The translations under genes and the position numbers were made by a program. This document shows, piece by piece, positions 40,948 through 50,669 of a DNA stretch of 64,000 bases. Positions within the stretch are counted from its first letter, which is position 1. Each line of letters begins with the position of its first letter. The stretch spans positions 124,001 to 188,000 of the forward strand of contig SHVE01000002.1 in NCBI GenBank assembly GCA_009694365.1, written 5' to 3'. This DNA comes from Thermoleophilia bacterium. Its GTDB lineage: Bacteria; Actinomycetota; Thermoleophilia; Miltoncostaeales; Miltoncostaeaceae. The notes beneath the pieces were generated by a model. The model was given only the letters and a program-made list of their open reading frames with translations, was not told where the DNA came from and did not search any database.

Positions 40948-41439
40948 TCACGCCGTCGCCGGGTCGCTCCCCGTATCCATGAGATCACGGGCCAGATCAC
41001 CGACCGGCAGGCCATCGGCGGCGGCCTGCTCGAGTGCCTGCCGAACGTCACCCGCACGGTCAAGGCGTATGCGCAGCGTGGCATCGATCGCGGCGAGCCA
41101 TTCGCTCACGCGGTCACAGTGCACCAGTAGCGCACCGTCGTTACCCGCCAGCACCGTGGCCACGTCGTCCGCCAGGAGAGGAATCGCCGCGCGCGCCTGC
41201 GCAACGTCCCGGAGCGGGTGCCAGCGCACGTGGTATCCCGCCTGTGCGTACTCCACGAGCCCATGCCGACTCCGCATGGCCGACACGATGGTCCGCACGC
41301 CCTGCGCGTGCCACCACGCGAGGTCGGCCTCCCGGCGGGCAACGCGGTGGCTACGCCCGCCGCCGCCAGGGCGCTCGGCGATTGCCAGTGATCCGGGCAC
41401 GATCCATGCATGCACCGGCGGAGTAGTGAGGTAACCCAT
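40948..41439 (-). CDS. Dual-specificity phosphatase-like protein missing the P-loop arginine
   Basis: 163 aa, ATG preceded by AGGAGG. The fold is that of small dual-specificity/tyrosine phosphatases: WIVPGSLAIAERPGGGG.., LAWWHAQGVRTIVSAM, ..GYHVRWHPLRDVAQA (general-acid loop) and LLVHCDRVSEW at the P loop. The canonical motif is HC-x5-R; here C108 is present but position 114 is Trp. Without the arginine phosphate binding should be poor, so a phosphate-sensing or dead-enzyme role is possible. Neighbours give no clue. Confidence 0.7.
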   Translation of the reverse strand: MGYLTTPPVHAWIVPGSLAIAERPGGGGRSHRVARREADLAWWHAQGVRTIVSAMRSRHGLVEYAQAGYHVRWHPLRDVAQARAAIPLLADDVATVLAGNDGALLVHCDRVSEWLAAIDATLRIRLDRAGDVRQALEQAAADGLPVGDLARDLMDTGSDPATA

Positions 41440-42243: not shown

Positions 42244-42654
42244 TCACGCAGCCGTCGCGGCCTCGCGGATCCAATCGGGCACGCGAACGGGAGTGCGCCC
42301 GGCGCGTTCGATGCACACGTGCACCAGCTCTCCCTCAGCGCAGAGCTCCGTCCCGCGCAGAAACCGGTGGCGACTGCGGAAGGACGTGCTGCCCACCCCA
42401 CCGACGGTGGTCTCGATGGTGATGATGTCGTCGAGCAGAATCCGGGCATCGAACCGGCACCGGCTGTCGACGACGGGAATGCCCACGCCCTCCTCGATTA
42501 GCCGGGTAAAGGGCCAGCCACGGTCGGCCAGCCACTCGCAGAGGCCACGATCCATCCACGCGTACGCGGTAGTGAAGTGGACCTGGCTCACATCGATCTC
42601 CGACATCACGATGCGTCGGGTCTCGCGTCGTACCTGAGGTGTGCCCGTGCTCAT
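42244..42654 (-). CDS. Acyl-CoA thioesterase (hot-dog fold, 4-hydroxybenzoyl-CoA thioesterase-like)
   Basis: 136 aa. Hot-dog fold pattern: VMSEIDVSQVHFTTAYAWMDRGLCEWLADRG.. (active-site region around Asp/Tyr), ..IPVVDSRCRFDARILLDDIITIETTVGGVGSTSFRSRHRFLRG and ELVHVCIERAGRTPVRVPDWI. It hydrolyses an acyl-CoA thioester; chain type unknown. TAGGCT at 42662-42667 lies seven bases upstream of the ATG. Confidence 0.85.
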   Translation of the reverse strand: MSTGTPQVRRETRRIVMSEIDVSQVHFTTAYAWMDRGLCEWLADRGWPFTRLIEEGVGIPVVDSRCRFDARILLDDIITIETTVGGVGSTSFRSRHRFLRGTELCAEGELVHVCIERAGRTPVRVPDWIREAATAA

Positions 42655-42667: not shown

Positions 42668-42840
42668 CGCGGCTATTTCCCGCTACGAGCAGCGGGGCGC
42701 CGCGTGGTGTGGCACGAAGGGGGGGAGCAACTGACGCGCCCAGACGTTTCAGGGGCACATCCCGCGGGAACCTCAGCGCGCAACATCAATTGTACGGAGC
42801 AGGTACTGAAACCACACGTCCCCACCACGATCGCGCCCTG

Positions 42841-44109
42841 ATGGAACCCGCGTGCCTCGGTACCTCCACCGGTTCCGCATCGACCACCGTCGATACGGCC
42901 GCCGATGCACGCCGGCGGCTGTGTCTCGGGGCCATGGCGGGTGCCCCCGGCCTCCTGCGCTATGCGGCCCGGTTCGCGCCGACGCTCCAAGACGCCGAGG
43001 ACGCCTACCAGCGCGGCATGGAGGTCGCACTCAGCAAGGGACCCATCGGCGACCAGCAGGAGTTCATCAACTGGCTCCATGTCGTCATCAGGAACGAGGC
43101 CACCACGCTGGCCCGCATGCGCACCCGTGAGTTGCCGGCCGGTGACGGTGTGGTGGTGGACACCATCGACGCCATCGGCAACGACCCGCGCGAACCCGCC
43201 GCCGTGGCCGAGTGGCGCGAGCGGTACCGCACCTTGCAGGACGCCCTGACCTCGCTGAACGAGGCCGAGCGGATCTGCCTGCTGCTTCGCACCGCAGGTG
43301 TGAGCCGTGCCGAGATCGGCACCATGACCGGCTTCACCGATCGCAAGGTGGAGCGGTCCATCGTTCGCGGTCGGGCACGACTCAACGAGTGGCATCTCAC
43401 CCTTGCCTCGGGCGAGCGCTGCACCACGGTGCGCTCCGCCCTCGAGCGCATCGCCGACCGCGACGGCGACGGCCGCGACCGACGTCAGGTATCCCGCCAC
43501 GTGCGCCACTGCGGCCACTGCCGCGCCACGCTACGGTCGCGGCGCCAGACCAATGCGGGCCTGCTCCCCTTGATCCCGGTTGCCATCATCGCGACCACGA
43601 CCGTCGGGGCCGTGGTACCCGACCCGTCACTCGGCATCACCCTGGCGGAGCGCGGCACCGCCCGTATGGCGGTGGGTATCGGGCAGGCGTGGCAGGGGCT
43701 CATGGATTTGCCAACCCTCATGACCGCGCGCGTCGGCGCAGGTGCCATCGCCATCACGGTGGTCGGCGTGGCCGGTGTGCCGCTGATGGCCAGAACGGTT
43801 GCGGATGGTCAGCGTACGACCACCCCGCTGGTCGCAGTGATGACCACCACCACGGCCAGCGTCGGTGCCACACCACCGGCTGCCGCTCTGGCCGAGCAGC
43901 GACGGCTTCAAGACCAAATCGCCCGTGATCATGAGCGGCGGGTCGCGCGACAACGCGCCGCGCGGGAGGCCGCTGACACACGGCGACGGCGCGCGGCAGC
44001 AGCGAACGCCGCGGCGACTGGCGGCTCCCGAGGCAGCTCTCCCTCACTCACGATGGCCACCCCCGCCGCGACGCCTGAGACCCAACCCCAGTTGGAGTTC
44101 GGACCATGA
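42841..44109 (+). CDS. Sigma-70 family (ECF-like) sigma factor fused to zinc anti-sigma motif and two TM segments
   Basis: 422 aa from the ATG at 42841; the frame upstream overlaps the thioesterase and lacks features. Region 2 is at about 34-95 (LLRYAARFAPTLQDAEDAYQRGMEVAL..EFINWLHVVIRNEA) and region 4 at about 130-182 (LQDALTSLNEAERICLLLRTAGVSRAEIGTMTGFTDRKVERSIVRGRARL). Then C194 and H220-x3-C224-x2-C227 form the zinc pattern of ZAS anti-sigma factors. Hydrophobic segments follow at about 240-258 and 298-318, then a Thr/Ala-rich and Arg-rich tail. So a membrane-tethered, self-inhibited sigma factor is inferred. ATGA coupling to the exported Ig-like protein suggests that protein is its output or signal. 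Confidence 0.82.
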   Translation: MEPACLGTSTGSASTTVDTAADARRRLCLGAMAGAPGLLRYAARFAPTLQDAEDAYQRGMEVALSKGPIGDQQEFINWLHVVIRNEATTLARMRTRELPAGDGVVVDTIDAIGNDPREPAAVAEWRERYRTLQDALTSLNEAERICLLLRTAGVSRAEIGTMTGFTDRKVERSIVRGRARLNEWHLTLASGERCTTVRSALERIADRDGDGRDRRQVSRHVRHCGHCRATLRSRRQTNAGLLPLIPVAIIATTTVGAVVPDPSLGITLAERGTARMAVGIGQAWQGLMDLPTLMTARVGAGAIAITVVGVAGVPLMARTVADGQRTTTPLVAVMTTTTASVGATPPAAALAEQRRLQDQIARDHERRVARQRAAREAADTRRRRAAAANAAATGGSRGSSPSLTMATPAATPETQPQLEFGP

Positions 44110-46505
44110 GTGCCCGCATCAGCATCACCACGTGCACCATCGCACTGGTCGCCATCACCGGCGGCGCGACGGCCACCGACGGGAACCTCTACACGCAGGG
44201 CGCGACCCCATTTAGCACCGGTGCGGGCGTGACGACCACCCAGCCCGCGCCATCGGTGGTGCAGGTGACCGCCACGGCGACCAACGCCGCCCCAACGGGC
44301 ATTACGTGGAGCATGGGCTGGGGGTGCCCGGTACCCGGCAGTGAGATCGCGTCGGTGAGTTGGAGCGCGCTCCGGTACGCGGCGCCGTCGAGCGCGGGTG
44401 TCCAGGTCACCAGTAACGGCGCGCGTCTGTGGGCCGAGGGTGACTCCGGCATGCCGCGGTCACCGGCCGGCGGCCGTGGCTACGGTGTGAGCCTGCCGGG
44501 CGGGATCTGCGACCTCCGACTCGAGATGGTGCAGAGGGAGCGCCGCCAGCAGCATGCACGAGTGTGGTGGATCGGTTCCCCCAGCGTGGTGGTGCGTGAT
44601 GTGACGGCACCGGCGGCGTCCATCACCAGTACCCCAGCCAACTGGGTACCGGGTGGCCAGGGATCGCTACGCGTGGCCTGGCAGGCGACCGACAACTTCG
44701 CAAGCGACGGCATCGCGGGCCAGCGGGTGCAACTGAGCGGCGAGGTGCGGTGGGCGGGCACCCCCGGACAGGGTCAGCACGCCGTGGACATTCCGCTCGA
44801 CGGCGTTCCCGATGGCACGCACCGCATCCGCGTAGAGGTGGACGGGGATGGCACGGGCGCCGCCGCAGCGGAGAGCACCGTGCGCATCGACCGCACTGGG
44901 CCCGAGACGGGAGAGGTCACGACCACCTATCCCCCCGGCAGCACCAAGCCCGAGGTCTCGTGGAGCGCGACGGATGTCACGAGCGGGCTGCAGATTTCCG
45001 CGGCGGAGGTGAACACCGCCGTCGATGGCAGTCAGGCCGGCGCATGGGTGACCGCCGGTGCGGCGGGGCCCGCGAGCGCCGGACTGCGCGTGACCCGCAC
45101 CGTGGGATCGGGCCTCGCCGACGGCGTGCACACGTGGCGGGTGACGGCACGTGACGTGGCCGGCAACGTCACCCAGCAACCCGCGCCCGACCGGCTCGTG
45201 GTGGACACCACTCCCCCCACAATCGACATGCAGCCCATCCCCTCCGCCTGGACCAGCACCCTGCCGCTCGATGTGATGCTGCGCGACAACCTCGACGGCG
45301 TACTCGGTCTGGGCGATCTCGACGTGGAGGTCAACACGGCGGCGGATGGCACTGCCAACGGCGAGTGGGTCCTCATGATCCACCAGGCGGCGACCCCAGG
45401 ACGCGACGTAATGGCCGTGCCGCTCGTGGGCCTCGGTGATGGCCTCCACCTCGTGCGCCTGAGGCTGCACAACGGCGGACCGTTCAGCCAGGTGCTGGTG
45501 GCGACACGCCTTGGCCTCGTGCGCACCGACCTCACGCCGCCGGACCTTGCGCGCGCGGTACTCACGGCCATGAGCGATGGACGGGTGCGCATGACGTGGT
45601 CGGCCGACGACGCCCGTTCGGGCATCGCGACGGTGAGGCTGCAGTGGCTCGATGGCGAGACGTGGCGGACCGTGATCGAACGGCCGGCGTCGAACGGCAG
45701 CGGCATCGTGACGCTCGATCCTGCCCTCGTCCCCGACCCCACCGCTCGGATGCGCGTGCAGGTGACCGACGTGGCCGGAAACACCCGAGGAATGGAGATG
45801 GACCCGGCGCCAGTGCAACGTCCCGGCGGCCCCTCCGGTCCTGCGGGGCAGATGGCGACGGAGGCCCGAGAGGGGCTGCTGAACCTCGGTCTCACGAACG
45901 CCGACCTCGAGACCGTGGAGGGCCAGCAGTACCGGGTGGCCACCCTCCGGGCTGGAGACACCGTGACGGTGACGGGTCGCCTCACCAACGCCCAAGGGCA
46001 GCCCCTGTCGGGATTCACCATGGTGGCCCGTCAGGACGCGCGCGATCTCGCGGTGGGTATCACGGGTCCCGGCGGATCGTTCGCCCTGCAGGTGACCCCC
46101 ACCCGGAGCGGCCCCATTGACGTCGGCGTTCCCGACGGCACCACGGTGATACCCGTGCCCACAGGGCCCGCCATCGCCGTACGCCTGCGAGCCACCGTAA
46201 CGCTGATGGCGTCATCCCACTCGGCCGTGGCCAAGGGCACCCCGGTCGTGTTCACGGGCCGCATGCTCCCGGCGCCGGGGACCGTGGGTGGGAGAAAGGC
46301 GATCGTGCTCGAGTGGCTCGACCCGTTCCGCAAGGTGTGGCGCCCGGTCGTAAACGCCCGGGCGAACGCCGACGGCACCTTCCGGGTTCCGTGGCGGTTC
46401 CAAGCGAGCGGCCTGACCGTGCCGTTCCGGGTACGGGTTCCGAGGGAACGCGGATGGTTCATCGAGCCCGCGATCTCGAGAATCGTCGTGGTGAGGGTGC
46501 GTTAG
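44106..46505 (+). CDS. Large exported protein with repeated Ig-like domains
   Basis: 799 aa. Signal peptide about 1-24 (SITTCTIALVAITGGATA). About four Ig-like/fibronectin-like domains follow, marked by linkers such as VVRDVTAPAASITSTPANW, RIDRTGPETGEV, VVDTTPPTIDM and RTDLTPPDLARAVL, and by ..DGTHRIRVEVDGD, ..ADGVHTWRVTARDVAGNVTQQ. Then a carboxypeptidase-regulatory-like domain (TVTGRLTNAQGQPLSGFTMVAR..) and a C-terminal beta domain. No sortase motif or membrane anchor. It overlaps the sigma-factor stop (ATGA), so the two are expressed together; an adhesive or surface-layer role is inferred from the fold. Confidence 0.85.
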   Translation: MSARISITTCTIALVAITGGATATDGNLYTQGATPFSTGAGVTTTQPAPSVVQVTATATNAAPTGITWSMGWGCPVPGSEIASVSWSALRYAAPSSAGVQVTSNGARLWAEGDSGMPRSPAGGRGYGVSLPGGICDLRLEMVQRERRQQHARVWWIGSPSVVVRDVTAPAASITSTPANWVPGGQGSLRVAWQATDNFASDGIAGQRVQLSGEVRWAGTPGQGQHAVDIPLDGVPDGTHRIRVEVDGDGTGAAAAESTVRIDRTGPETGEVTTTYPPGSTKPEVSWSATDVTSGLQISAAEVNTAVDGSQAGAWVTAGAAGPASAGLRVTRTVGSGLADGVHTWRVTARDVAGNVTQQPAPDRLVVDTTPPTIDMQPIPSAWTSTLPLDVMLRDNLDGVLGLGDLDVEVNTAADGTANGEWVLMIHQAATPGRDVMAVPLVGLGDGLHLVRLRLHNGGPFSQVLVATRLGLVRTDLTPPDLARAVLTAMSDGRVRMTWSADDARSGIATVRLQWLDGETWRTVIERPASNGSGIVTLDPALVPDPTARMRVQVTDVAGNTRGMEMDPAPVQRPGGPSGPAGQMATEAREGLLNLGLTNADLETVEGQQYRVATLRAGDTVTVTGRLTNAQGQPLSGFTMVARQDARDLAVGITGPGGSFALQVTPTRSGPIDVGVPDGTTVIPVPTGPAIAVRLRATVTLMASSHSAVAKGTPVVFTGRMLPAPGTVGGRKAIVLEWLDPFRKVWRPVVNARANADGTFRVPWRFQASGLTVPFRVRVPRERGWFIEPAISRIVVVRVR

Positions 46506-46814: not shown

Positions 46815-48113
46815 CTACCGCACGTGGGTGGTGGCGCGGACAACGCGCACAGGTACACGAGCGGTGGCGCGGCGAACGACGGGAGTACCGCCGTGCGGCA
46901 CCACCGTTATGCGGCTGACCACCGACGCCATGGCCACACGCTGAAGGAACGCCACGGCCGAACGGGCAAGCGGCACCACGATGGTGCGCGACGCCGGTCG
47001 CACTCCGCCCGTGCCCACCCGCACCGTCGTGGCGCCCCGGCCAACCACCCGGCCCGCGACCGACACCACCGACGCCACGCGCACGGTCGCTCCGGACGGA
47101 GCCGTCCCTGCGAGCGCCACGCGCACACGCACGCGGGCCCAGGCTGCCGAGCGGATCACCTGCGTCCACACCACCCTCACGGTGGCGGTCGGCGTGGCCG
47201 GCACCGTGGCCGTGGGGGGGTCGGCGGGCGGAACATCCGATTGGTGCGCGAGACGGAATGTATCCCGCACGATGCCGTCGGCGCTCTGGAACGTACCCGT
47301 GAGTTCGTCATCGGTGGCGACGAGGCGCATGGCCCCGTTGGCACCCGTGTAGTGCGCAACGCTTTCGGGAACGAACGCCGCCGGGGCTCCCGTCGGGGCC
47401 TGACCCCCCAGTCCGTTGACGATGTAGGGAATGCCACCGGAGGTCAGGCGCTCATACACATGGTCGTGGCCACTGAGTACGAGGTCGGCGCCCCACTCGG
47501 CGAACGGCCAGCGCATGGCCGGGTACGGCCCGCGCGTGCTCGACGTATAGGGCGGGTGATGCATCGCTACCACCTGGAAAGGGGCCGTGCTCGCGGTGAG
47601 GGCCGCCTGGAGCCACCCTCTCTCGGCCACCATCTCACCCGGCGTCCGGAGTGACTCATCGCTGTCGAGCACGAAGAGGTGAACCGGACCTAGGCGCACA
47701 TCGAAGTAGCGCTCATTGCTGGGCAACGAGAAGTAGGCGAGGTGGTTGGCGATACCGAGATCCGAGTACTCGTGATTTCCGACTGCGGGCCACAGATGGT
47801 TAGTGGGTGACGTCCCCCCCGCGCACCAGGGTCCCGGGGCCGCACCCGCCATGAACCCGCAGTAAAACCGCCCTACCGAGCGGTCAAGCCGGTCCGTTCC
47901 CGTTCCGCCCGCCGACGCGTAGTAGTTGTCGCCGAGCAGCACCACATCGTCGGGCGCCCAGCCCGTGACCATCGCCGCCACCTGAGCCGCGCCCGCGCTC
48001 GCGGTACCCGGATCCCCCACGACGGCGACGGTGGTGGCCCCGAGGGCCGAGGTGGCACTAGCGAGGGCGACCGCGGCCGATATCGTGACGAGCGCTCGGG
48101 TGCGCGTGGTCAT
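46815..48113 (-). CDS. Exported metallophosphoesterase
   Basis: 432 aa. Signal peptide about 1-25, then a calcineurin-like phosphoesterase: D34 (VAVVGDPG), GDNYY 61-65, GNHE 112-115 (WPAVGNHEYS), VVAMHHPPY and LVLSGHDHVYERL, all the metal ligands of the purple acid phosphatase/alkaline phosphatase D-like fold. The last about 100 residues (..VRVVWTQVIRSAAWARVRVRVALAGTAPSGATVRVAS..) form an Arg/Val/Thr-rich beta domain of unknown role. The ATG at 48113 overlaps the stop of the upstream exported protein. Confidence 0.9.
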   Translation of the reverse strand: MTTRTRALVTISAAVALASATSALGATTVAVVGDPGTASAGAAQVAAMVTGWAPDDVVLLGDNYYASAGGTGTDRLDRSVGRFYCGFMAGAAPGPWCAGGTSPTNHLWPAVGNHEYSDLGIANHLAYFSLPSNERYFDVRLGPVHLFVLDSDESLRTPGEMVAERGWLQAALTASTAPFQVVAMHHPPYTSSTRGPYPAMRWPFAEWGADLVLSGHDHVYERLTSGGIPYIVNGLGGQAPTGAPAAFVPESVAHYTGANGAMRLVATDDELTGTFQSADGIVRDTFRLAHQSDVPPADPPTATVPATPTATVRVVWTQVIRSAAWARVRVRVALAGTAPSGATVRVASVVSVAGRVVGRGATTVRVGTGGVRPASRTIVVPLARSAVAFLQRVAMASVVSRITVVPHGGTPVVRRATARVPVRVVRATTHVR

Positions 48114-49411
48114 CGGCCGTAGACCACGAGCGGCTGGCTATGGCCCTCGGACAGGGTGGCGTACTCCGTACAGGCGGCGTTCACGGCCACAGCCTCACCC
48201 TGCGGCTCGGCGAGGTACGGGCGGGCGACGCCGGGTGCGAGGAGCGCGGCGGCAAGGCCGAATGGTGACTCGTGCACGAGAAGGCCGCCATACGTCTTCA
48301 CCATCACCGTACGGCCGTCGTCGCAGGCCGACGCCCCGACCACCCACCCGTACGCGAGTTCCCCGACGAATTCGAGCACTCCCCCACCGACGAGGACCTG
48401 GGCGGCGTCCAGACGGTAGATACGCGACCGCGCCTCCCGCTTGGTGATGATGTACAGGTGACCCTGCGTGCGGTCCACCACCAGCGCCTCGGCGTCACGT
48501 GGCCCGTCCGGGTAGACGAGGGTGATCGAGGTGACACCGACGGGTGCGAGGACCGCACCGGGGGCGATTCCCGACAGGTCGGGCTCCACCAGACGGTGAA
48601 CCCGTACCGACGCACGTACCGCAGCGTTGTCGCCGATATCCGCCACGTAGATGAACTCGGTTCCAAGAGGTCCGGGGCCGCTGGCGATGTCCTCCACATC
48701 AACCGCACCGATACCCGCGAGGGGAACCGTCGCCCGGATTGCGCCGTCCCGTCCGATGGCGAAGATGCGGGCCGTGTCCCCACTGTCGTTGTGGGTCCAG
48801 AACACACCCGCCTGCGAACGACTCATTGCGAGCCCCGAGGCCTCGATGACCGGCGCGCCCACGAGTCCCATAACGGTGCGTGTGGTGCCGGGAAGGCGAG
48901 TGGTGAGTGGTGGCGCGACCAGTATGGGGGCGAGTGGTGAAGCATCCGGTATCGAGGGGGACGCCTCGTCGGCCGGAACCGTGACCGGTGGGACCCGCTC
49001 GGCAGCGGGGGGATCCACGACGACGACGCCGCTCAAGGGCGGGGGGGCGAGGCGTCCACGAACCAGCTGCACCCGTCCATGGCCGGGGATGACACGGGCG
49101 CTCACGGTGATGGCGGCATGCGTCGCCGTGCAGTCGTACAACGAGCCCGCACGAAGACCCACGCGAATGGAGACCGGGCCACGTCTGCGGAACGACCGCG
49201 TGGCGTGGTGGAGGACAAGTGATATGTCTGCGGTGGCGACAACACGTATGCGTCCGCGGGAGGCGGTCACGCCCCGCACCGTCACGACCAGCGTCTCCGA
49301 ACCCGCAACACACCTGGGTTCCACCGACATGCGCGGTGTACCGAGCACGGGACCGGCCAGCACTCCGAGGCCGATGAGGACTGCCACACACCCGCTACGG
49401 AGGGATGTCAT
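48110..49411 (-). CDS. Exported protein with beta-propeller-like domain
   Basis: 433 aa from the ATG at 49411, behind GGAGG; the open frame upstream is not supported. Signal peptide about 1-25 (SGCVAVLIGLGVLAGPVLG). A beta domain with two cysteines follows, then a Pro-rich stretch, and from about 175 repeated strands (VIEASGLAMSRSQAGVFWTHNDSGDTARIFAIGRDGAIRATVPL.., DVEDIASGPG.., FIYVADIGDNAAVRASVRVHRL, DAEALVVDRTQGHLYIITKREARSRIYRLD) like a beta-propeller that binds metal or sugar. Coupled to the metallophosphoesterase (ATGA). Together they may scavenge phosphate outside the cell; no direct evidence. Confidence 0.78.
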   Translation of the reverse strand: MTSLRSGCVAVLIGLGVLAGPVLGTPRMSVEPRCVAGSETLVVTVRGVTASRGRIRVVATADISLVLHHATRSFRRRGPVSIRVGLRAGSLYDCTATHAAITVSARVIPGHGRVQLVRGRLAPPPLSGVVVVDPPAAERVPPVTVPADEASPSIPDASPLAPILVAPPLTTRLPGTTRTVMGLVGAPVIEASGLAMSRSQAGVFWTHNDSGDTARIFAIGRDGAIRATVPLAGIGAVDVEDIASGPGPLGTEFIYVADIGDNAAVRASVRVHRLVEPDLSGIAPGAVLAPVGVTSITLVYPDGPRDAEALVVDRTQGHLYIITKREARSRIYRLDAAQVLVGGGVLEFVGELAYGWVVGASACDDGRTVMVKTYGGLLVHESPFGLAAALLAPGVARPYLAEPQGEAVAVNAACTEYATLSEGHSQPLVVYGR

Positions 49412-49554
49412 GTGATCATCCTCCCCTCGCACGGCACCACGTGCGTCCGTGGAGGCTCCCACCTCACGAAAAGCGAACGAAAAGTGAACGAAATCCACCC
49501 TTCCGCATATCACCGCGGCATGAGTCGTGCATCGGTCATCGTGGCCGATGCGGG

Positions 49555-49560
49555 TACGCT
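49555..49560 (+). promoter_or_regulatory. -10 box (TACGCT), leaderless promoter of the glycosyltransferase operon
   Basis: TACGCT ends eight bases before the ATG at 49569, at the head of four overlapping glycosyltransferase genes. Confidence 0.5.
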
Positions 49561-49568
49561 GCCGACGC

Positions 49569-50669
49569 ATGGATGCCGATGTTCTCTTCGACGCCACTCC
49601 CCTCGGCCGAGACCATTCCGCCCGCGGCATCGGTGCGGCCGTGCGGGGAATGGCCGAGGGTCTGGCGGCACAAGCTCCGAGACGGCGCCCGGCGTTCTTG
49701 GTCGAGGGCGAAGGCGTGGAGGTTCCGCTCATCCCCGAGCGCTATTCGGTGAGGTGGCCGAACGTCCGCATTCGCCGACTTCCCGACCCGTGGCCCGTGG
49801 CACACGTCGCTCGGGTCGTGCGCAACCTCACCCCGCGTCTGTTCCACTCCACACAGCCCGACCTCATGCCGTCGGGCATTCCGAGCGTGGTGACGCTGTA
49901 CGACCTCATCCCCGCCGCCTACCCCGACCTGTTCCTGTCCGGGGGCAGCCACGCGGCCACAACGGCCGCCTACCGCCGCTGGATGGCCCGGCTGCCGGAT
50001 GCCCGCCTCCTGTTGTGCATCTCGCAGGAGACCGCGGCGGACGCCGTGCGCCTGGCCGGCGCCGACGCCGCGCGCTGCCGGGTGATCCCACTCGCCTGCC
50101 CGCCCATCGCGACCGCCGACGGTGAGACCCCGGAAGACCCCTACATCCTCATGACCGGTGGACTTGAGCCGCACAAGAATCCGTGGCCGGTCATCTCGGC
50201 GCTCGCGCTGCTGCCCGAGCCCCTGCGCCTTGTGATGACGGGCCAGTGGAGTGGTCGCCGCACGCGCCGGGTACACGACTACGCCCACCGTGCGGGCGTG
50301 GCGCATCGGGTGGATCTACTCGGCCACGTCCCCGCCACGTATCTGGCGGCGCTACGCCGGGACACCGTGGCCGTGGTCGTTCCGAGTCTCAAGGAGGGCT
50401 TCGGCCTCCCGGTGCTCGAGGCCATGACCACCGGTGTACCCGTCATCGCCAGTAACACCCCGGCGCTCCGGGAGGTGGGGGGCGACGCCGCGCGCTACGA
50501 GGACCCGTACGACCCGAGCGGGTGGGCCGACGCCATCGCCGAGGCCTGGCAGGAGCCCGAGATTGCGAGGTCGGCGGCCATCGGGGGGCCGTCGCGGGCA
50601 CGGAGGTTCTCGTGGGATTCAACCGCGACACAGTTGCTCGCGGCCTACGACGAAGCGCTCACCCAGTGA
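49569..50669 (+). CDS. GT4 glycosyltransferase 1
   Basis: 366 aa, GT-B fold, first gene of the polysaccharide operon. DATPLGRDHSARGIGAAVRGMAEGL at the acceptor side, FHSTQPDLMPSGIPSVVTLYDLIPAAYP (a motif of mannosyl/rhamnosyl GT4 enzymes), ILMTGGLEPHKNPWPVISAL and VVVPSLKEGFGLPVLEAMTTGVPVIASN with the E-x7-E pair. The donor could be GDP-mannose or dTDP-rhamnose; not decidable. The stop overlaps the GTG of the next gene. Confidence 0.9.
   Translation: MDADVLFDATPLGRDHSARGIGAAVRGMAEGLAAQAPRRRPAFLVEGEGVEVPLIPERYSVRWPNVRIRRLPDPWPVAHVARVVRNLTPRLFHSTQPDLMPSGIPSVVTLYDLIPAAYPDLFLSGGSHAATTAAYRRWMARLPDARLLLCISQETAADAVRLAGADAARCRVIPLACPPIATADGETPEDPYILMTGGLEPHKNPWPVISALALLPEPLRLVMTGQWSGRRTRRVHDYAHRAGVAHRVDLLGHVPATYLAALRRDTVAVVVPSLKEGFGLPVLEAMTTGVPVIASNTPALREVGGDAARYEDPYDPSGWADAIAEAWQEPEIARSAAIGGPSRARRFSWDSTATQLLAAYDEALTQ

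Follow-up and report, generated by a model that had tools for sequence, protein, structure and literature searches.

We describe here a sigma factor gene and its overlapping partner in a 64,000-nucleotide stretch of Thermoleophilia bacterium DNA (the window; assembly GCA_009694365.1, contig SHVE01000002.1, positions 124,001 to 188,000 of the forward strand). The first gene encodes a single chain that joins an extracytoplasmic function (ECF) sigma factor, a zinc anti-sigma (ZAS) domain, hydrophobic segments and a linker ending in a short conserved tail. The second encodes a large exported protein built of immunoglobulin (Ig)-like domains. The organism is a freshwater bacterium with a streamlined genome (1.50 Mb, 98% complete; G+C of the window 68%), and the sigma gene, which stands beside surface polysaccharide genes, is one of only four matches to sigma region 2 in that genome. 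The two genes and their parts are as follows.

42841..44109, + strand: sigma-ZAS-transmembrane (TM)-linker-tail fusion gene, 422 amino acids (aa), defined by open reading frame (ORF) and hidden Markov models (HMMs)
42946..43128, + strand: sigma-70 region 2, residues 36-96; PF04542, 24.8 bits (cut-off 24)
43231..43383, + strand: sigma-70 region 4, residues 131-181; PF08281, 28.9 bits (cut-off 25.7), and a fold match to ECF sigma region 4
43420..43524, + strand: ZAS (zf-HC2-like) motif C194..H220-x3-C224-x2-C227, from a zf-HC2 match and conservation
43561..43617, + strand: hydrophobic segment 1, residues 241-259; probably no TM segment in the family at large
43732..43788, + strand: hydrophobic segment 2, residues 298-316; likely crosses the membrane
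43879..44019, + strand: Arg-rich charged helix in the linker, residues 347-393; AlphaFold, predicted local distance difference test (pLDDT) mostly about 90 or more
44092..44106, + strand: conserved tail LEFGP
44106..46505, + strand: gene of the 799-aa exported Ig-like protein, which shares ATGA (44106-44109) with the end of the sigma gene
44187..44600, + strand: N-terminal beta-sandwich domain, residues 28-165, from the structure model
44604..45821, + strand: chain of Ig/fibronectin type III (FnIII)-like domains, residues 167-572, from fold comparison
46188..46502, + strand: C-terminal Ig-like domain, residues 695-799, its end kept in relatives

Sigma and anti-sigma parts in one chain

The initial annotation read the 422-aa chain as a sigma factor with a built-in zinc motif and TM segments. 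Its sigma part holds: PF04542, PF08281 and TIGR02937 (48.5 bits; cut-off 42.9) all score above their cut-offs. Both the HMM matches and the AlphaFold model contain regions 2 and 4 and lack region 3, as expected of an ECF sigma factor. The model, in which sigma-2, sigma-4 and three ZAS helices are confident and residues 297-344 are of low confidence, resembles ECF sigma factors in Foldseek and VIA-align comparisons, several of them from sigma/anti-sigma complexes. The zinc motif is borne out by the family, though the window protein alone falls below threshold (zf-HC2 over residues 194-228, 18.9 bits, E 0.0017; Pfam cut-off 22.2). We aligned 53 chains (52 of the 54 complete sigma chains plus the window's; the start-truncated L093 and the short form L122 were omitted). 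In these, C194, H220, C224 and C227 are invariant, and zf-HC2 is recognised in 45, with a best E of 2.5e-10. The Hx3Cx2C motif, the upstream cysteine and the helical fold together mark a class I ZAS domain. The Pfam scan of the window chain returned nothing beyond sigma and zf-HC2 and no carbohydrate-binding domain, and neither Pfam nor NCBIfam scans found a FecR family. The start of the chain lies at about the same place in orthologues of the genus.

Two hydrophobic segments are present, as annotated; two membrane spans are not established. The segments are similar in mean Kyte-Doolittle value over 19 residues (2.18 for segment 1, about 241-259, and 2.05 for segment 2, 298-316). Values of at least 1.6 are reached by both segments in all ten members of the genus, but among 43 other chains by segment 1 in only 10 and by segment 2 in 32. 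Because only segment 2 is widely conserved, one span with the C-terminus outside appears likelier than two. AlphaFold backs neither arrangement; its model of segment 1 is a short helix with a break.

What the annotation took to be unusual, the fusion itself, is of a known kind: sigma/anti-sigma fusions include ECF48, ECF52, ECF53 and IutY (PMC8999054, PMC5411451). ECF52 (SCO4117 of Streptomyces coelicolor) has the same order of ECF sigma factor, zinc finger, TM segment and Pro-rich extension in the excerpted account (PMC5826349), and our sigma-family profile reaches the ECF52-architecture proteins L288, L290 and L294 through ZAS and TM. Of these traits the window chain shows the zinc finger and an Ala/Pro/Ser-rich linker, whereas its putative TM segment has no AlphaFold helix. 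ECF52 differs in its fused C-terminal carbohydrate-binding domain (in L288 an NPCBM match of 102.6 bits), in whose place the window has an EFGP-type tail and a separate Ig-like protein. The anti-sigma part of IutY (ECF243) is of the FecR type. Like the window chain, IutY carries sigma and membrane anti-sigma parts in one chain and has a surface partner protein, as excerpted from PMC5411451; its partner is a siderophore receptor, whereas here a ZAS domain is paired with an Ig-like protein in an actinobacterium. ECF48 and ECF53 are actinobacterial zinc-finger fusions with one to two TM helices and an expected release by proteolysis (PMC8999054, in part); the excerpted description mentions neither an EFGP-type tail nor an Ig partner. 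The fused sigma/ZAS/membrane reading of the annotation thus fits the HMMs, the conservation and these precedents.

The sigma chain was matched at E <= 1e-3 in 35 of 61 relatives. A scan of a genome collection for the fusion gave 75 loci, mostly in Thermoleophilia metagenome-assembled genomes (MAGs), with records titled Miltoncostaeales among the closest; Hx3Cx2C is kept in 64 of the 74 loci read (L148, a contig-edge fragment, was left out). Among 246 genomes of the phylum, strong full-length matches are confined to the class; matches outside it are weaker and mostly partial, being sigma-only, ZAS-only or ECF52-like. At the level of sequence, then, the sigma-ZAS fusion is class-wide in Thermoleophilia. 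Some record titles look wrong: L085, L087, L089, L125, L141 and L144 (CAMCDF, CAMCOB, CAMAVU, CAMCVN, CAMDBT and CAMDLG) are titled 'MAG: Bifidobacterium breve', and L093 Acidobacteria, yet all carry a Thermoleophilia-type locus.

The conserved tail and the Ig-like partner

The most telling feature of the chain was missed in the initial annotation. The linker is variable, charged and rich in Ala, Pro and Ser, and in some members holds a second, internal EF motif; its end is conserved. Among the 53 rows, 31 end in E[FM][GAS]P and 15 in another EF/FG-type sequence ([FM]G[FL]E followed by one residue or none in 11, EFxPE near the end in 3 and EFSFEPGR in 1). Grouped at 60% identity, 17 of 22 clusters have such a tail, a count that includes the cluster of L107 through its three EF[GAS]P members. 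Of the final 40 positions in the 22 cluster representatives, the last four belong to those that vary least (1.24-2.42 bits, where most others lie at 2.6-3.2 and the Pro-rich positions 23 and 27 reach 2.42 and 2.27 bits). The low variability of the last four speaks against a mere low-complexity linker. Nor is the tail a general C-terminus of these genomes: EFGP followed by a stop occurs only 0 to 2 times per genome in eight genomes, by a pattern that also admits TGG (1 of its 7 matches). The overlap of the tail codons with the ATGA start of the next gene could have left such a footprint. This is ruled out by ten EF[GAS]P members without an overlapping start, nine with no nearby Ig gene or overlapping start and L098 with its Ig gene 82 nt downstream. 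Since the tail is retained in these members, it is under constraint as protein.

The overlap with a 799-aa exported Ig-like protein was correctly annotated: the protein has a signal-peptide-like start and a Big_13 match (34.4 bits; cut-off 27), which together place it among the exported bacterial Ig-like (Big) proteins. Of the 50 members with room for a following gene, 28 have an Ig-like gene whose start is no more than 150 nt from the sigma stop, 20 of them with a 4-nt overlap. The profile used was built from 27 of these 28 partners plus the window's protein, and 28/50 therefore counts adjacency rather than independent discovery. Used by itself as query, the window protein retrieves 15 of the 28, L109 among them as a fragment, and most of the remainder are connected by way of one another; it was matched in 18 of 37 genomes. 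The relatives thus keep the fusion and, in 28 of 50, the coupled gene. The suggestion that the neighbour may be the regulated product or a sensor gains from this, in that the two genes form a conserved module.

The structure model of the exported protein has a pLDDT of 86. Its best fold match is PTPRD FN4-6 over residues 265-572 (Z 11.3, root-mean-square deviation (rmsd) 5.3, 279 aligned); the bacterial matches include RbmA (Z 10.0, rmsd 19.6, 183 aligned) and the HPI S-layer protein (Z 9.6, rmsd 17.1, 352 aligned). These matches of the model to repeat-Ig proteins show shape only. No lectin was among the fold matches for the N-terminal beta-sandwich, in searches that barely covered residues 28-165. 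A signal-peptide-like start is seen in all 28 aligned exported partners (the window's protein included in the alignment), and an LPxTG motif or hydrophobic C-terminal anchor in none of the 28; something else would therefore have to hold these proteins.

The tail also recurs on other proteins. We sought the exported family in 119 genomes of the class, 32 of which were positive at 1e-35. A tail-bearing ORF lies directly upstream of 33 of 69 distinct Ig-family genes with room, against 104 of 3543 background ORFs; the genes are not phylogenetically independent. The 69 remained from 77 Ig genes after eight that lacked room upstream had been set aside; one of these eight, L230, has a tail. The tail pattern misses GPGP variants and L241/L242, and the choice of upstream ORF misses some sigma genes that are present (L058, L062, L063, L072). 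Other sigma fusions, some lacking the zinc motif (L188, L235, L238), precede paralogous Ig-like genes. Five upstream membrane proteins, L183, L187, L241, L242 and L243, have a span and a tail and no sigma domain. Tails on upstream proteins outside the main family end in EFGP, EFGQP, FGPGP, EFGL, QFGLP or EFxPGPW. The non-sigma proteins show one hydrophobic span; their matches to the sigma-family profile fall largely in the half that covers TM, linker and tail (E 5e-10 to 7e-6) and are weak, the sequence being of biased composition; an Arg-rich stretch comparable to that of the linker is found in L183 and L241-L243. In L241 (2589-3368), L242, L243 and L183 the N-terminal part ahead of the span is acidic and carries a shared LVP[LI] motif. 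Outside the class but within the phylum, L279 (277-2568, - strand) encodes sigma, ZAS, TM and Ig (Big_7) parts in one chain; by eye, a further C-terminal part of this protein looks like a beta-propeller.

New in our searches are the class-wide fusion, its pairing with an Ig-like protein, the conserved tail and the paralogous Ig-like genes that follow other tailed membrane proteins. We found no paper on this sigma/Ig-like module in the open-licence PMC literature.

Neighbouring genes and the upstream element

Two further features lie upstream of the sigma gene.

42244..42654, - strand: divergent 4HBT-type thioesterase gene, a neighbour kept in several genera of the family
42767..42791, + strand: candidate promoter/operator footprint, a GGAAC element followed by a degenerate TGCAA-N5-TTGCA repeat, from an upstream alignment of 10 genus members (one with GGAGAC)

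In the window the gene pair is surrounded by glycosyltransferases, a PF02397 sugar transferase, a GH5-like protein, the 4HBT thioesterase and a metallophosphatase, and similar neighbours surround the sigma gene in other genera. In L064 and L066 a glycosyltransferase-like gene lies directly 3' of the sigma gene with no Ig gene between, judged from the first part of its translated sequence. These glycosyltransferase-type neighbours suggest that polysaccharide genes may be targets of the sigma factor. Two neighbours have no Pfam family: a 163-aa protein kept in the family (40948-41439, - strand) and a 540-aa ORF, possibly with a later start, that adjoins the metallophosphatase (48110-49732, - strand).

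A shared promoter motif had been proposed as a check. The GGAAC footprint does stand upstream of the sigma gene in members of the genus, followed in several by the TGCAA-N5-TTGCA inverted repeat, which is degenerate in the window. A stricter GGAAC form gave 15, 14 and 12 matches in three genomes against 5, 0 and 3 in reversed controls. The pattern is not enriched in the window (8 against 4.76 expected), and no regulon is therefore supported.

A surface-sensing reading and its alternatives

The reading we prefer, at slightly less than even confidence, is that the gene pair forms a one-chain surface-sensing system. The fused zinc domain would keep the N-terminal sigma factor inactive, and hydrophobic segment 2 would tether the chain to the cytoplasmic membrane, so that the charged Pro/Ala-rich linker brings the EFGP-type tail to the outer face. 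There the tail would dock the Ig-like protein, the exported product of the overlapping gene. The docked state would signal the condition of the cell surface, probably that of the polysaccharide which the neighbouring glycosyltransferases make. A change in docking would allow the tail and linker to be trimmed and a site-2 protease to cut the span, freeing the sigma domain for RNA polymerase. The genome encodes a site-2 protease with a PDZ domain, and PDZ_2 matches are also present. In favour of the reading we further count the class-wide sigma and ZAS domains, the pairing with the Ig-like gene, the constrained tail and its recurrence before Ig-like genes, the lack of an anchor in the exported proteins, and the one-chain protein L279. 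There are precedents for such steps in other bacteria: IutY is freed by Prc and then RseP (PMC5411451, in part), a comparable release is expected for ECF48, ECF52 and ECF53 (PMC8999054, in part), and a domain of FoxA binds the C-terminal domain of the anti-sigma factor FoxR, guarding it from proteolysis (PMC11637429, in part). In FoxR/FoxA too a surface protein engages an anti-sigma C-terminal domain, whereas sigma and anti-sigma are separate chains and FoxA is an outer-membrane receptor. By analogy with FoxA and IutY, the Ig-like protein may hold the tail until a surface change exposes it to proteolysis.

Several observations weigh against this surface-sensing reading, beside the missing enrichment of GGAAC. 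AlphaFold shows no helix at 297-344 (pLDDT < 50), a region that spans segment 2; the flanking charges point to N-in/C-out in only 28 of 53 rows, being equal in 13 and opposite in 12, and do not do so in the window's genus. Seven rows lack an EF/FG-type tail, one of them ending in GEF, and 22 of the 50 members have no Ig gene within 150 nt. The genomes of 13 unpaired members all have an Ig-type match elsewhere, weak in four (E about 1e-10 to 1e-15); Ig repeats match easily, and the same search also took in three coupled members. Tails that end in Pro are not typical PDZ ligands, which are usually hydrophobic.

The Ig-like protein might instead simply be what the sigma factor regulates, a structural component of the surface or matrix that is co-expressed with its own regulator and never in contact with it, the tail serving stability, as a protease tag or in assembly of a membrane complex. 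Autoregulation alone would explain the operon order and the overlap, the GGAAC footprint lies upstream of the sigma gene, and the tail is retained where the Ig gene is not adjacent. Autoregulation leaves unexplained why tails recur on non-sigma membrane proteins before Ig-like genes, and why tail-bearing ORFs are so frequent upstream of Ig genes compared with background; we regard this alternative as rather unlikely. Less probable still is a two-span hairpin, in which both segments cross the membrane and the linker and tail are cytoplasmic, out of reach of the Ig-like protein. The strong segment 1 of the window and its genus agrees with it, and the Arg-rich linker, taken alone, would suggest the cytoplasmic side; segment 1 is weak in 33 of the 43 other chains, in which tail and pairing persist, it is modelled as a broken helix, and the non-sigma tail proteins have a single span. 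We give similarly little credence to the tail as a site-1 protease tag, read by a PDZ or tail-specific protease that starts regulated intramembrane proteolysis, with the Ig-like protein at most shielding it. The PDZ_2 matches and the site-2 protease are in keeping with this proposal, whereas the terminal Pro of EFGP is unlike the usual PDZ ligand and no site-1 protease was found among the neighbours scanned. The trimming of IutY by Prc before RseP acts (PMC5411451, in part) offers a parallel for it.

A broader proposal, on which we are more doubtful than on the surface-sensing reading of this gene pair, is that Thermoleophilia possess a general docking system in which EFGP-tailed membrane proteins hold co-encoded, anchorless Ig-like exported proteins. 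One branch would have a self-inhibited sigma factor as the inner end of its tailed membrane protein, and a single chain would read out surface assembly directly as transcription. If the surface-sensing reading is true, the gene pair would give actinobacteria a counterpart of cell-surface signalling made of two genes, and the five residues of the tail would offer a handle by which the signalling step can be tested. It would also open a route to function for the many uncharacterised Ig-like exported proteins of Thermoleophilia.

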